Origin: Alphaproteobacteria bacterium
Lineage (GTDB): Bacteria > Pseudomonadota > Alphaproteobacteria > Micavibrionales > Micavibrionaceae
Direction: 5' to 3'
Assembly (NCBI GenBank): GCA_016757515.1
Contig: JAERIN010000014.1
Span: 1-34,679, forward strand
Length of the DNA stretch: 34,679 bases
Shown: in pieces, positions 26,107-30,192 of the stretch
How the letters are laid out: each line of letters begins with the position of its first letter
Numbering within the stretch: position 1 is the first letter of the stretch
Notes under the pieces: generated by a model
The model's database searches: none
What the model was told of the DNA's origin: nothing
Seen by the model: the letters and a program-made list of their open reading frames with translations, nothing else
Program-made: the position numbers and the translations under genes

Positions 26107-28023
26107 ATGCCGCACACCATCCGCCCCCAGCTCCGCGTCGTCATCGTCGGCCACGTCGATCACGGCAAGTCCACCCTCATCGGCCGCCTGCTGCACGACA
26201 CCGGCTCTCTGCCCGAGGGCAAACTGGCCGAGCTTAAGGCCATCTGCGCCCGGCGCGGCACGGACGCGCTGGAGTGGTCGTTCGTCCTGGACGCCTTCCA
26301 GGCTGAGCGCGACCAGGCCGTCACGATTGACACCACGCAGATTTGGTTCAAGACCGCCATGCGGGACTACGTCATCATTGACGCGCCCGGCCACCGGGAG
26401 TTCCTCAAGAACATGGTCTCCGGCGCGGCGGCTGCGGACGCGGCCATCTTGGTTGTGGACGCGCGCGAGGGCGTTGCGGAGCAGACCCGCCGCCATGCGT
26501 ATCTCCTCCACCTCTTGGGCCTGACGCAGGTGGGGGTTGCGGTGAACAAGATGGACCTTGTCGGTCACGACCCAGAGGCCTTTGGTGCCGTCCGCCGGGA
26601 GGTGGAGGCCTACCTCACCTCTATCGGCATCACGGCCTCCCACATTGTGCCCATGGCCGCCCGGCACGGAGAGATGGTGGCCGCGCGCGGGCAAGCCATG
26701 GACTGGTACGCAGGCAAGACCCTGACCGAGGTCTTGGACAGCTTTGAGGTCGCGCCGCAGCCCGTGGCCCTGCCCCTGCGCCTGCCCGTGCAAGACGTCT
26801 ATCGCATGGGAGAGGAGCGCGTCTTGGTGGGTCGTGTGGAGACGGGCATCTTGCGCACGGGGGACCGCCTGCTCTTTTCCCCTACGGGGGAGGAGGCCAC
26901 CGTCACGGCGCTGCGCGTGTGGCCCCACGACCCGGACAAGGTGGCGGCGCGGGCGGGGGAGGTCATCGGCTTGACCCTGGACCAGCGGATCTTCGTGGAG
27001 CGGGGGCATGTCGGCTCACACACGCAAAACCCCCCCATGCTCTCTAGCGTGTTCCGCGCGAACCTCTTCTGGCTGGGCCGGGCCCCCTTGCGTGTTGGTG
27101 GCATATACCGTGCGCGCTTTGGCACGGTGGAGGTTCCGGTCACCGTACAGTCCATTGAGCGGGTGATCGATACGGGGGACCTGTCCCAGAGCGCGGGGGC
27201 CGTGGCGGGCCAGGTGCCCAGGAACGCCGTGGGAGAGGTGACTTTCCGCGCCCGGGACCTGCTGCCCGTGGACCCCTATGCGGACAACCCTCGCCTGGGC
27301 CGCGTGGTGCTCTACGACGGGCACGATATCGCCGGGGGCGGGGCCCTGACCATGGAGGGCTACGCCGACCAGCGGCGTGTGGAGCGCCCGGCCTCCGCCC
27401 ACATTTATAAGGTGCACTCCGCCCTTGCGCCTGACGCCCGCGCCGCCAAGAACGGCCATCGGGGAGGCGTGTTCTGGCTCACCGGCCTTTCTGGTGCCGG
27501 CAAGTCTACCATCGCCATGGCCGTGGAGCGCGCGCTGTTTGAGTCTGGGGCGCAGGTGTATGTCCTGGACGGGGACAACATCCGCCATGGCCTGAATGCT
27601 GATCTGGGCTTTTCGCCGGAGGAGCGGGCGGAGAATGTCCGCCGCGTGGGGCACGTTGCAGCCCTCATGGCGGACGCGGGGCTGATTGTCGTCTCGGCCT
27701 TTATTTCTCCTTATCTTGCGGACCGGGAGCGCGCCCGCGCCGCCGCGCCCCAGCACTTCCACGAGGTGTACATCGCCGCAGACCTCGCCACCTGCGAGGA
27801 CCGGGATCCAAAAGGGCTGTATAAGCGCGCGCGGCGGGGGGACATCCGGGGCTTTACCGGGGTGGACGCGCCGTATGAGCCCCCGCCGAACCCGGACCTC
27901 TTGATCTCCACCCAGGGCAACAGCGTCCAGACCTGTGTGGAGCAGCTCCTGGCCTACATCCGCGCCCACACAGCCCTGTCCGAGGCGCGCCCAGACTTCG
28001 CCGAGAAGGCGCTGGGGATATAG
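26107..28023 (+). CDS. cysNC: Bifunctional sulfate adenylyltransferase subunit 1 / adenylylsulfate kinase
   Basis: 638 aa fusion. The N-terminal GTPase (CysN, about 1-425) drives sulfate activation: P-loop GHVDHGKST (15-23), switch DAPGHREF (about 96-103), NKMDLVGHD (about 147-155), followed by EF-Tu-like beta domains. The C-terminal APS kinase (CysC, about 450-638) has the P-loop GLSGAGKS (460-467), [16 protein letters not shown] and [13 protein letters not shown]. Together they make APS and PAPS. The partner cysD, usually directly upstream, is absent. There is no SD. The 3' 51 bp of the gene are repeated at 29150-29200: the present stop (ATA TAG) is supplied by an inserted element, while the downstream copy keeps ATC TGA. 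The protein end, ALGI, is unchanged. Confidence 0.95.
27969..28019 (+). repeat. 51-bp direct repeat, left copy (inside cysC)
   Basis: Identical over 51 bp to 29150-29200. It codes for the last 17 residues of CysC up to the first two bases of the final Ile codon. The offset between copies is 1181 bp. Confidence 0.95.
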
Positions 28024-28040
28024 GGCCCCCGGGCTGCGTA

Positions 28041-28114
28041 GCAGCCCAGCGCACGGCCCGCCCCCCCACGGGGCGGGCGCTATTCGCGCCCTTCGCCCCG
28101 TGCGGGCCGTGCGC
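28041..28114 (+). repeat. Hairpin repeat B, copy 2
   Basis: A perfect 13-bp outer stem GCGCACGGCCCGC (28049-28061) / GCGGGCCGTGCGC (28102-28114) encloses ACGGGGC (28068-28074)/GCCCCGT (28095-28101) and GGGCGC (28075-28080)/GCGCCC (28086-28091) with loop TATTC. Related to 18106-18195. It begins 18 bp after the cysNC stop and is the left end of the inserted element. No T-run follows. Confidence 0.85.
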
Positions 28115-28168
28115 ATATGGATACTGCCCATCCAACAGATAGTTGAACAAGGGGCCGTATCATTGCCC

Positions 28169-28223
28169 TTGACACGCGCGTTCCCCTTGCCCATCATTCC
28201 CAGGAGCCCTTATTTCTAAGGGC
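28169..28223 (+). promoter_or_regulatory. Promoter and leader hairpin of the 28244 gene
   Basis: TTGACA (28169-28174), 17 nt, CATCAT (28192-28197) is a promoter with a consensus -35. A 7-bp hairpin GCCCTTA-TTTC-TAAGGGC (28206-28223) follows, just upstream of the SD AGGGAGG. The hairpin is placed where it could control translation or bind a repressor. Confidence 0.5.
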
Positions 28224-28243
28224 AAAACATAGGGAGGCAAGCC

Positions 28244-28636
28244 ATGGCTTTTGAAAAATTCAAACAAACTGGGCGTTCATACGCTTCTAAAGTTTCCATC
28301 AGTCCGCGCGGCATGATAAGTTTTACGGATGGCGCACGCCACAGATTCGGCTTAGATAAATATGATTTTGCTGTTCTGTACTACGATAAGGAAACCTCTG
28401 TCGTTGGAGTGGAGCTTATTAACGATGAAAACGCTGAAGGCGCTATAAAGCTGCGCAAGCGTGAGACTGGTGGTGCCGATATCGCCGCAAAAAGCTTCGT
28501 GGACTATTTTGGCATTACGCCGGAAAATACAACCATGTATAATCTATCCGAGGGAGAGAACGAGAGATGGATAGTCTGGAGCCTGCATGATGGCGTGGAG
28601 CGCAAGCGAGGAAAGCGCGAAAGGGGGCTTGCATAA
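28244..28636 (+). CDS. Hypothetical protein of the inserted element
   Basis: 130 aa with a strong SD (AGGGAGG, 7 nt). The pattern KVSISPRGMISFTDGARHRF, YDFAVLYYDKET, VVGVELINDENAEGAIKL and a C-terminal AAKSFVDYFGI is one I associate with small uncharacterised proteins of phages and mobile elements, but no function is known to me. It is likely a mixed alpha/beta single domain, cytoplasmic, with a basic tail (KRKRGKRERGLA-like). Codon use is clearly less GC-rich than the neighbours. It precedes the structured spacer and the GIY-YIG gene and may be part of the same mobile unit. Confidence 0.75.
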   Translation: MAFEKFKQTGRSYASKVSISPRGMISFTDGARHRFGLDKYDFAVLYYDKETSVVGVELINDENAEGAIKLRKRETGGADIAAKSFVDYFGITPENTTMYNLSEGENERWIVWSLHDGVERKRGKRERGLA

Positions 28637-28661
28637 AATTTGGCCCTGTGCCAAAACAGAA

Positions 28662-28795
28662 GAAGGCCAACCCCTGCAAGGGCTGGCCTTCCAGTGGAGG
28701 GGCAGAGAAACTGCTTACCCGCTCCGGTAGTGCTTATCGGTAGGGTAGTGGCTTTTCTCCTTCTTAGCAATAGGCAACCGGAGCCACTCTGCCCC
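28662..28795. ncRNA. Structured intergenic segment, possible non-coding RNA
   Basis: Three strong pairings in 134 nt: a hairpin GAAGGCCA (28662-28669)/TGGCCTTC (28684-28691) extended by CCC/GGG; a long-range stem GGGGCAGAG (28699-28707)/CTCTGCCCC (28787-28795), 9 bp; and inside it GCTCCGGT (28721-28728)/ACCGGAGC (28777-28784), 8 bp. All are perfect Watson-Crick. The innermost 48 nt repeat GGTAG-type words. The order of stems suits an RNA with a closed outer domain and inner arm, or a DNA structure used by the element. Strand and function are unknown; no tRNA or known riboswitch fits. Confidence 0.55.
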
Positions 28796-28835
28796 GGCCC
28801 TGGTTGCCGCTGTCATGAACATAAGGAGTAAAACC

Positions 28836-29099
28836 ATGACAAACATACCAAGCCTTCCAGGGGCTTATATCCTGGAAAACTCCGGACGCCCGATTTATAT
28901 TGGGTCTACGGAAAACCTGTTTCGTCGCATTAATGAGTGGCGCAACAACCCGGAAAACCCATGCGTGAGACGTATGGGGTTTGATAACGTTTCCTACCGG
29001 GCGACTAGTGGCCTAGAGGAAGCACGCAGACTGGAACTGCATTGGTTCAACCATTTTAGGCCGGTTTGCAACCTTGCCACGCCTCCGGGTACGGCGTAG
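28836..29099 (+). CDS. Single-domain GIY-YIG nuclease family protein
   Basis: 87 aa from ATG 28836, which has AAGGAG 7 nt upstream; ATG 28815 would place that SD inside the gene. The whole GIY-YIG domain is present: GAYILENSGRPIYIGST (about 9-25), the catalytic Arg in NLFRRINEW (about 28-36), the metal-binding Glu in EEARRLELHWFNHF and the final PVCN. Such short proteins are stand-alone nucleases related to UvrC and homing endonucleases. Here it is carried by the element in the cysNC end and may cut DNA during its movement; this is inference. Lower GC than neighbours. Confidence 0.85.
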   Translation: MTNIPSLPGAYILENSGRPIYIGSTENLFRRINEWRNNPENPCVRRMGFDNVSYRATSGLEEARRLELHWFNHFRPVCNLATPPGTA

Positions 29100-29112
29100 T
29101 CAGACCAAAGTG

Positions 29113-29145
29113 GCACCCCGCTGCGCTTCACGCGTGGCGGGGTGC
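29113..29145 (+). other. Strong hairpin at the right end of the inserted element
   Basis: GCACCCCGC (29113-29121) and GCGGGGTGC (29137-29145), 9 bp perfect, 13 bp after the GIY-YIG stop and 5 bp before the right 51-bp repeat. It could end the nuclease message, although the following bases (TTCCC) are not a T-run, or it could mark the element end. Confidence 0.6.
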
Positions 29146-29149
29146 TTCC

Positions 29150-29200
29150 CACAGCCCTGTCCGAGGCGCGCCCAGACTTCGCCGAGAAGGCGCTGGGGAT
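29150..29200 (+). repeat. 51-bp direct repeat, right copy (original cysC end)
   Basis: Identical to 27969-28019 and followed by the codon end C and TGA, thus also encoding the cysC C-terminus with a different stop. It lies 20 bp from the tadC stop. Confidence 0.95.
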
Positions 29201-29220
29201 CTGAGGCCCCCTTCGGCCTG

Positions 29221-30192
29221 TCACTGACCCCCCATCTGCTGGGATATCTGGATGCCCGCCGGGCCCAGGATGATGATGAACAGGGCCGGCAGGAAGAACA
29301 GAATCATAGGGACGGTGAGCTTTGGGGGTAGACCGGCGGCCTTTTCTTCCGCAGCGGCCATGCGCATGTCGCGCAGCTCTTCGGCCATAATCTTGAGCGC
29401 ACTGGAGATAGAGGCCCCGTACTGCTCGGCCTGCAAAATGGCTGTGGCGAAGGTCTTGGCTGCGCCCACGCCCATGCGGTCCGCAAAGTTCTTCAGCGCC
29501 AGGCGCCGGTCGCCCAAAAGGGACATCTCCGCAGAGAGCACGCCCATCTCCTCGGCCAAAATCTCCGAACTCTCGGCAATCTCCCGCGCCACGCGCTCCA
29601 CCGCCTGCTCCAGGCCAATCCCCCCCTGGACGCAGATGAGCATAAGGTCCAGGGCATCGGGGAAGATAAGGTTGATTTCCTCTTGCCGCTTTGTGATCTG
29701 GTTTTGCAGCATAAGGTCGGGGAGTTTATAGCCCACACCCGCAGACACCAGGAGGATAATCAACTTCGTTAATTGTGAAAACTGGAACTGGCCGGAGGAG
29801 ATAAACAGCACGGCCAGAAGAGTCAGGACAACGGGCAGGATGATCTGCGCGGCTATGAACTTAAGGGGGGCGCTGGGGCTGCGTATCCCGGCCATGAACA
29901 TTTTCAACCGCACCTGCTCACCCATATCGCCCGCCAGCTTGCGGAGATGATAGAGGGTGGACATGGACTCGCGGCCGGAAAGGCGCTGGGCGGTCTCGGC
30001 CTCTTGCTTTTTGGCCAAGCGCTTGGCCTCGCTCGCCAGCTCCGCGCGGCGTTTTTCAATGATGGCGAGATAGCGTTCCTTTTTGGAGCCCTGGGACAAG
30101 AACGGCAGGGCAAAGAGGACAAAGCCCACAAGCGCAACTGCGCCCAGCAGGAGGGTTATAAAAAGAGGACTTTGGAGGAATTGGAGGTTCAC
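29221..30192 (-). CDS. tadC: Tad pilus assembly inner-membrane protein TadC
   Basis: 323 aa, T2SS GspF-like. TM segments lie at about 10-32, 112-132, 140-160 and 293-315 (PMILFFLPALFIIILGPAG). Conserved cytoplasmic parts are FPDALDLMLICVQGGIGLEQ (about 181-200) and AEQYGASISSALKIMAEELR. It forms the platform for Flp/Tad pilus assembly with TadB. Start codon GTG, 2 nt after the tadB stop, with AAGG inside the tadB end. tadA, cpaE and flp are not in the window. Confidence 0.9.
   Translation of the reverse strand: MNLQFLQSPLFITLLLGAVALVGFVLFALPFLSQGSKKERYLAIIEKRRAELASEAKRLAKKQEAETAQRLSGRESMSTLYHLRKLAGDMGEQVRLKMFMAGIRSPSAPLKFIAAQIILPVVLTLLAVLFISSGQFQFSQLTKLIILLVSAGVGYKLPDLMLQNQITKRQEEINLIFPDALDLMLICVQGGIGLEQAVERVAREIAESSEILAEEMGVLSAEMSLLGDRRLALKNFADRMGVGAAKTFATAILQAEQYGASISSALKIMAEELRDMRMAAAEEKAAGLPPKLTVPMILFFLPALFIIILGPAGIQISQQMGGQ

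Follow-up and report, generated by a model that had tools for sequence, protein, structure and literature searches.

Tyrosine-integrase integrative and mobilizable elements (IMEs) commonly enter the 3′ ends of housekeeping genes and restore them, and elements that keep attL and attR with their integration and transfer genes lost are described as cis-mobilizable elements, or CIMEs (PMC5704250). In fungal mitochondrial DNA (mtDNA), mobile endonuclease open reading frames (ORFs) replace the C-termini of genes, the described cases being Allomyces atp6 and Glomus atp6, atp9, cox2 and nad3; in Glomus atp9 the inserted C-terminus lies at 175–225 (51 nt), a GIY-YIG ORF at 334–1119 and the native C-terminus at 1120–1171 (PMC3630166). 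In the SymE/SymR pair the toxin has an AbrB fold, and SymR, encoded in cis to symE, represses symE (PMC1891008). Here we describe an insert of 1,181 nt (28020–29200) at the 3′ end of cysNC in an alphaproteobacterium of the Micavibrionaceae (assembly GCA_016757515.1, contig JAERIN010000014.1, positions 1 to 34,679); this whole 34.7-kb stretch is referred to as the window. Like a CIME, an IME or a genomic island as these are characterized in PMC5704250, the insert is flanked by direct repeats that contain a gene 3′ end, its target is restored and its cargo is foreign, and like a CIME it has no integrase or transfer gene inside. It differs in being only 1.18 kb long and in that no relative with the same att sequence was found. 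With the fungal elements, as PMC3630166 presents them, it shares a duplicated gene end, an endonuclease ORF between the two ends and a native end displaced by about 1 kb. However, it is bacterial and chromosomal, its two ends are identical (51/51) whereas the inserted fungal ends differ from the native ones, and it carries an additional DNA-binding-like gene and a probable small RNA. The insert is a variant of integrase-less att-like-flanked or gene-end-replacing elements, and the new result is its cargo unit.

The two flanking copies of the cysC coding end match at 51 of 51 positions. Similarity in register reaches 62 nt with three mismatches, and all three fall at the stop codon (ATATAGGGCCCCC versus ATCTGAGGCCCCC); the copies diverge solely from the last codon onward. 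Through the left copy the cysNC frame continues to a TAG at 28021–28023, giving the present end ATA TAG, and the displaced end at the right copy reads ATC TGA, with the TGA at 29201–29203. Many cysNC relatives have a similar C-terminus, ...EKA(L/I)(A)(V/I/S). The window contains just one further repeated 20-mer (at 968 and 29250), so the 51-nt duplication is not a chance occurrence. A tandem duplication of a 1,181-nt unit was also considered and was ruled out, since similarity stops 62 nt into the repeat. An earlier note on this DNA, made by reading the sequence, had claimed two perfect 51-bp copies of the cysC 3′ end, the two different endings, and an insertion that rebuilt the coding end of its target. 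The copies and both endings read as it claimed, and the insertion with a rebuilt gene end is supported. Features of the locus are listed in Table 1.

Table 1. Features of the cysNC insert and its flanks; positions are those of the window
Feature	Position	Strand	Basis or remark
cysNC, target gene (sulfate adenylyltransferase subunit 1/adenylylsulfate (APS) kinase)	26107–28023	+	Pfam APS_kinase E 4.9e-64, GTP_EFTU E 4.5e-42
Left 51-nt repeat, cysC coding end as used now, attL-like	27969–28019	+	51/51 versus 29150–29200
Dispersed palindromic intergenic host repeat, repetitive extragenic palindrome (REP)-like, right after the new stop	28024–28115		Seven other genomic matches
Promoter-like site for the 28244 gene (TTGACA-17-CATCAT)	28169–28197	+	Consensus scan, 10/12
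P0001, the 28244 protein, 130 aa, rare family; possible tandem AbrB/MraZ-like DNA-binding pseudo-dimer	28244–28636	+	
Predicted convergent small RNA	28651–28735	−	Terminator 28692–28661 plus U run; promoter-like −35 28770–28765, −10 28747–28742
P0002, stand-alone GIY-YIG nuclease, 87 aa	28836–29099	+	PF01541 E 8.8e-9; phmmer to UvrC N-domain structures
GC-rich hairpin, right end of insert	29110–29149	+	Direct sequence reading; not scored terminator-like in the terminator scan
Right 51-nt repeat, displaced original cysNC end, attR-like, then TGA	29150–29200	+	51/51 versus left copy
Convergent flanking gene, tadC-like by eye	29221–30192	−	Stop 17 nt from the displaced cysNC stop

Between the repeats only two genes stand out, and both are foreign-looking in base composition. 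The G+C content is 47.6% for the 28244 gene and 52.3% for the GIY-YIG gene, compared to 68.1% for cysNC and 65.2% for the window, and at third codon positions the values are 48.1%, 55.7% and, for cysNC, 85.8%. None of the insert proteins matched an integrase, transposase or transfer-gene family. P0002 carries a GIY-YIG catalytic domain (36 bits against a Pfam cut-off of 22.6); its residues 5–80 align to UvrC N-domain structures (phmmer E 1.9e-6), and it has the GAY and YIG motifs as well as Arg, Glu and Asn at what we take to be the catalytic places of the family. Neither P0001 nor P0002 matched a PADLOC 2023 defence profile at E 0.01. The lower-GC genes, the stand-alone GIY-YIG nuclease gene and the lack of an integrase or transposase inside the insert had all been described in the earlier note and are borne out by these results.

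The occurrence of this arrangement was surveyed in 104 genomes of the family, among which there was no other member of the genus. A cysNC search gave some match in all 104, many of them only to other GTPases and about 60 near full-length. Thirty cysNC loci were taken; 29 of them (the window's and those of 28 relatives) were readable through the gene end, and one (L038) was not. A downstream copy of the last 51 nt of cysNC scoring above 30/51 within about 1.45 kb was found in none of the 28 relatives, and the window scored 50/51 in the same test, indicating that the duplicated gene end is particular to this genome. The 28244 protein was present in 1 of the 95 genomes searched, the window's own, and absent from the other 94. 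An arrangement common to all relatives, which according to the earlier note would point to an old tandem duplication and not to mobility, is excluded by these two results. No stand-alone relative of P0002 was found in the 104 family genomes; its four other family matches, one of them in its own genome, sit in frames of about 620–650 aa, as UvrC would. The window's genome also encodes a second, diverged copy of the 28244 protein, P0003, which adjoins an Erf-like phage protein. The stretch containing the genes for P0003 and this Erf-like annealing protein (L010, C41:5079–8351 of the same genome) is prophage-like.

Searches for the 28244 family were widened stepwise with growing alignments, and the genome sets overlap. 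Hits were obtained in three of 385 genomes of the class (its own included; one was weak and was dropped), three of 345 genomes from the phylum of G519, four of 132 from the phylum of G520, one of 299 drawn from its own phylum (the window's genome alone), and one of five and two of 257 genomes in further sets. Two genome contigs, found with query A2, and two plasmids were added. The class, family and own-phylum sets include the window's genome, and the sets with 3/345, 4/132, 1/5 and 2/257 hits each include an already known locus. In all, 13 distinct loci were recovered: the window, P0003, L048, L049, L050, L053, L054, L057, L058, L059, L060, L061 and L064. The weak match dropped from the class set was a partial one in genome G239 (L051, E 1.2e-4) and counted as unconfirmed, and the sole viral-contig matches of P0001 (L011 and L012) were dropped since they lie in a glycosyltransferase-like frame. 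Viral contigs had no match for P0002, A2 or the L053 protein, genome contigs had none with P0001 as the query, and plasmids had none for P0002. In tblastn searches of phages, none of P0001, P0003, P0002 and the L053 protein had a match at limits of E 0.01, 0.1, 0.001 and 0.01, respectively; at E 10 the L053 protein had one meaningless match (E 9) and the L059 protein none.

The gene that follows differs between these loci. Six of the 13 have, immediately next and on the same strand, a gene for a small stand-alone nuclease, and three folds are represented. GIY-YIG proteins follow in the window (E 8.8e-9), L058 (E 7e-4, below the cut-off) and L054 (E 0.006, below the cut-off, motifs recognized by eye), HNH proteins in L059 (E 7.6e-6, above the cut-off) and L061 (E 0.0035, below the cut-off), and an SNase-like (staphylococcal nuclease-like) protein in L060 (Pfam E 0.02, below the cut-off; PHROG endonuclease E 1.6e-8). 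In L050 an HNH gene (E 2.7e-8) comes second, behind a KTSC gene, and L048 continues with a gene annotated recJ. The other five loci showed no nuclease in the next position: L049, where a helix-turn-helix gene runs across the record start, L057, L064, P0003 and L053, which reaches the contig end. The check proposed in the earlier note, whether the 28244 protein adjoins a GIY-YIG protein elsewhere, gave a positive answer in two unrelated genomes (L054 and L058). As P0002 and the L054 protein gave no BLASTP alignment, the GIY-YIG partners may have been acquired independently of each other. When seven other unit proteins were compared with PADLOC 2023, weak domain-level matches were obtained for the L059 HNH protein (best E 6e-5, type IV restriction) and the GIY-YIG proteins of L058 (8e-4) and L054 (0.007). 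The surroundings of the loci also vary. Relatives of the cargo protein occur on two plasmids, one of them adjoining a tyrosine recombinase, and restriction-modification genes lie near several loci. L050 is accompanied (in L071) by an Eco47II-type endonuclease and a gene that by eye is C5-methyltransferase-like, and DNA methylases occur in the neighbourhood of both L061 and L058 (in L067 and L068). Other unit loci lie among ordinary-looking chromosomal genes, such as L059 behind a helicase.

The structure model of P0001 itself was poor (predicted local distance difference test score, pLDDT, 40), and that of its relative from L053, built from three sequences, was used instead. The best of five L053 models had a pLDDT of 76 (41–63 for the others) and a predicted template modelling score of 0.70, and it places two beta-beta-alpha-beta-beta units in one chain. 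MraZ consists of tandem AbrB-like domains, and the model resembles it in this arrangement. In VIA-align MraZ ranked first, as a weak match (Z 5.4, root-mean-square deviation 6.5, 93 residues aligned) that is accompanied by no significant sequence match, and plant B3 domains followed with Z 3.4–4.0. The best PDB chains for the family profile were AbrB regulators, at E 0.067–0.072, which is below significance. Foldseek of the L053 model against PDB found nothing at E ≤ 0.001, so that the fold may be AbrB/MraZ-like or B3-like. Foldseek at the same limit matched the predicted fold to 11 viral proteins, for none of which the match list describes a function. One of the 11 is from Klebsiella phage Menlow, and a profile search of this phage for a fused nuclease gave nothing convincing in approximately 112 of its 157 kb. 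From the modelled fold, members of the 28244 family are perhaps one-chain pairs of AbrB/MraZ-like DNA-binding folds, and a DNA-binding role for the 28244 protein is a reasonable inference.

The earlier note had also called the spacer between the two genes highly structured. This was correct in so far as 28637–28840 folds better than shuffled sequences (z −2.6), but the strongest structure of the insert lies elsewhere, at 28024–28243 (z −6.3), much of which is a host repeat considered below. The spacer contains a terminator-like hairpin on the strand antisense to the two genes (score p 0.02), the 14-pair stem of which was found again in a second scan. The same test was applied to 12 of the 13 unit loci, the P0003 spacer being left out. 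Terminators and promoters were scored with simple weights of our own and compared to first-order Markov shuffles. An antisense hairpin followed by a U run was found in nine of the 12 spacers, each with p ≤ 0.02 (Fisher 8e-9 over all twelve), at no more than 45 nt from the stop codon of the first gene in eight loci and at 100 nt in L050; L048, L057 and L064 had no good antisense terminator. As controls we used 11 co-directional gaps of 120–400 nt, taken from the window and five of the other unit regions and delimited by greedy ORF calls. With a threshold of 37, chosen after the scores were seen, the score of the nine was reached by none of the 11 control gaps on the antisense strand and by one on the sense strand. 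The sense strand of the unit spacers was also rich in terminator-like hairpins (Fisher 6e-4), in part because strong palindromes score on both strands.

Promoter-like sites were enriched on the antisense strand over ten spacers (Fisher 8e-7, or 7e-6 without L050) compared to the sense strand (0.25), and five of the ten reached p ≤ 0.05 singly, the window not among them. In seven loci (the window, L049, L054 and L058–L061) the best antisense promoter precedes the terminator and would give an RNA of about 80–120 nt. In L050 the best site lies beyond the terminator, and a further site (TTGACA-17-TACTAT) is present upstream of the terminator. Rfam searches gave nothing at the gathering score, either for 27900–29300 of the window (best E 1.2) or for ten relatives' loci, in which the best match was RsmY in L059 (E 0.03, 25.5 bits versus 57). 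Because antisense terminators and promoters are both enriched in the spacers, a convergent small RNA encoded there is likely. An AbrB-fold protein with an RNA in cis on the opposite strand would recall SymE and SymR; the comparison is with the description in PMC1891008, and both the RNA and the fold of the unit are predicted. In the unit, by contrast, transcription of the RNA would begin in the spacer downstream of the 28244 gene and stop close to the 28244 stop codon, and a nuclease gene follows.

In our reading the cargo is a recurrent unit in which a probable DNA-binding protein and a probable antisense RNA are combined with a stand-alone nuclease whose fold can be exchanged. For the insert as a whole, we see about an even chance that it is an att-like-flanked element with no integrase of its own, which arose by a single crossover and carries this three-part unit. 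The event would have been a Campbell-type crossover within the shared 51 nt, between the cysNC 3′ end and a circle (or a larger element that has since shrunk) carrying the same 51 nt and a stop codon of its own. A crossover within these 51 nt would re-end the gene with the element's own copy, and integration would displace the native end by 1.18 kb. Recombination may have been carried out by a tyrosine recombinase acting in trans, or the insert may be the deletion remnant of an integrase-bearing element, as in a CIME. The window's genome has nine phage-integrase-family matches, some of which are presumably XerC or XerD, and a protein of this family could have supplied the recombinase. Within the unit, the nuclease would act as effector under the direction or control of the DNA-binding protein. 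The small RNA would hold the nuclease down, since it could pair with any message that reads through from the first gene into the nuclease gene.

Several results count against this interpretation. Neither an empty site nor a circular junction was found, with no other member of the genus among the genomes surveyed. No further copy of the 51-mer was found in the same genome at the search sensitivity used, no viral contig contained its 20-nt core, and the 2.0–3.6 kb around each of the nine integrase matches had at most 12 nt in common with it. The assembly is a draft of 90 contigs. Host-type repeat DNA at the left end of the insert is unexpected on a freshly arrived foreign circle. With respect to the unit, four of the six nuclease calls are below the Pfam cut-off and the count of six in 13 may in part reflect a background of small genes followed by such nucleases; the antisense promoter of the window is weak (p 0.26) and missing from the consensus-scan sites; and likeness among the spacers is at chance level (four of 66 pairs with p ≤ 0.05, about three expected; best L059/L061, p 0.005). 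Finally, near-identical flanking duplications were found at none of L048, L049, L050, L053, L054, L057–L061, L064 and L010. The earlier note had asked whether the 28244/GIY-YIG pair is flanked by 3′-end duplications of different genes, and this was not observed; the pair does not, then, generally move by this route. Of the short imperfect repeats at the other unit loci, only those of L059 might bracket a unit. There, a 29-nt sequence at 1271–1299, close to where the upstream helicase gene ends, has two further direct copies, one just before the P0001-like gene (1457–1485) and one behind the HNH gene (2508–2536), which are 76 and 69% identical to the first. This is the nearest case found; the copies were not counted as a duplication and possibly reflect chance, possibly an old gene-end duplication.

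Other repeats and fragments were observed near two of the loci. L050 (G226 contig 39) has a tRNA-like 3′ fragment, identified by eye, at about 343–402 on the minus strand; it lies downstream of the run of methyltransferase, P0001-like, KTSC and HNH genes and may be an attachment-site remnant, and ARAGORN finds no full tRNA in the locus. Tandem 11-nt repeats are present at 543–586 of L061, upstream of the unit.

Instead of entering by a crossover, the new end could have been brought in by the nuclease. The GIY-YIG enzyme, perhaps together with the DNA-binding protein, would have cut the cysNC 3′ end, and repair would have copied in a donor allele with its own cysC end and the nuclease, displacing the native end. 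Such a route has nearly the geometry of the Glomus mtDNA atp9 case (PMC3630166); the nuclease motifs of P0002 are present, and the unit repeatedly includes a small free-standing nuclease, the fold of which differs among loci. However, the fungal ends differ in sequence whereas the cysNC copies are identical over 51 nt, the 87-aa enzyme has no extra DNA-binding region of its own, and the lack of near-identical gene-end duplications at the other unit loci speaks against this route as well. We consider invasion driven by the endonuclease unlikely.

The left junction bears on an explanation that involves no mobile element. Host-type repeat DNA begins directly behind the new stop codon: the repeat at 28026–28115 matches seven other places in the same genome (L002–L008) over 33–98 nt with 74–92% identity. 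This GC-rich palindrome of about 90 nt, present whole or in part at eight genomic places, looks like a family of the REP or bacterial interspersed mosaic element type. Given host-type DNA at its left end, the insert must have been invaded by the repeat at a later time or have originated in the same population. Without a mobile element, a segment of a close relative's chromosome or plasmid that held the two genes, the palindromic repeat and an end of cysNC would have been joined by RecA or illegitimately; 51 nt can support homologous exchange. Set against this are the foreign composition of the two genes, their absence from the other family genomes searched, and repeat boundaries that are sharp on both sides, and we hold ordinary recombination of this kind to be improbable. 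An assembly artefact, in which two sequences were joined at a 51-nt overlap, is favoured by the draft state of the contigs and by a length close to common assembler word lengths, but it is very improbable. The right copy runs on into a stop codon and the adjacent gene, and through the left copy cysNC receives a new in-frame end, such that two matching errors would be needed.

As its nuclease is of a different kind in related loci, the unit may represent a mobile or defensive module that has not been described before; among the titles listed in open-access PubMed Central searches, none describing it was seen. In its most specific form, which we put forward only tentatively and judge unlikely, it would be a selfish or defensive module of three parts. 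A DNA-binding pseudo-dimer would choose the target, a small RNA would be its partner, and the nuclease, whether GIY-YIG, HNH or SNase, would be a plug-in part swapped between lineages; here the module would be carried in a minimal 1.18-kb integrase-less element that re-ends its target gene. The insert would also be an att-like-flanked element of very small size and a bacterial parallel to the fungal mitochondrial gene-end-replacing endonuclease elements. The recurrent unit of a DNA-binding-like protein, a probable antisense RNA and an exchangeable nuclease is the part that merits further study. If it works as proposed, recognition, control and cutting would rest on three small parts, with the cutter swappable for one of another fold, and nature would thereby offer a simple test of the way in which homing or restriction-like enzymes are put together.

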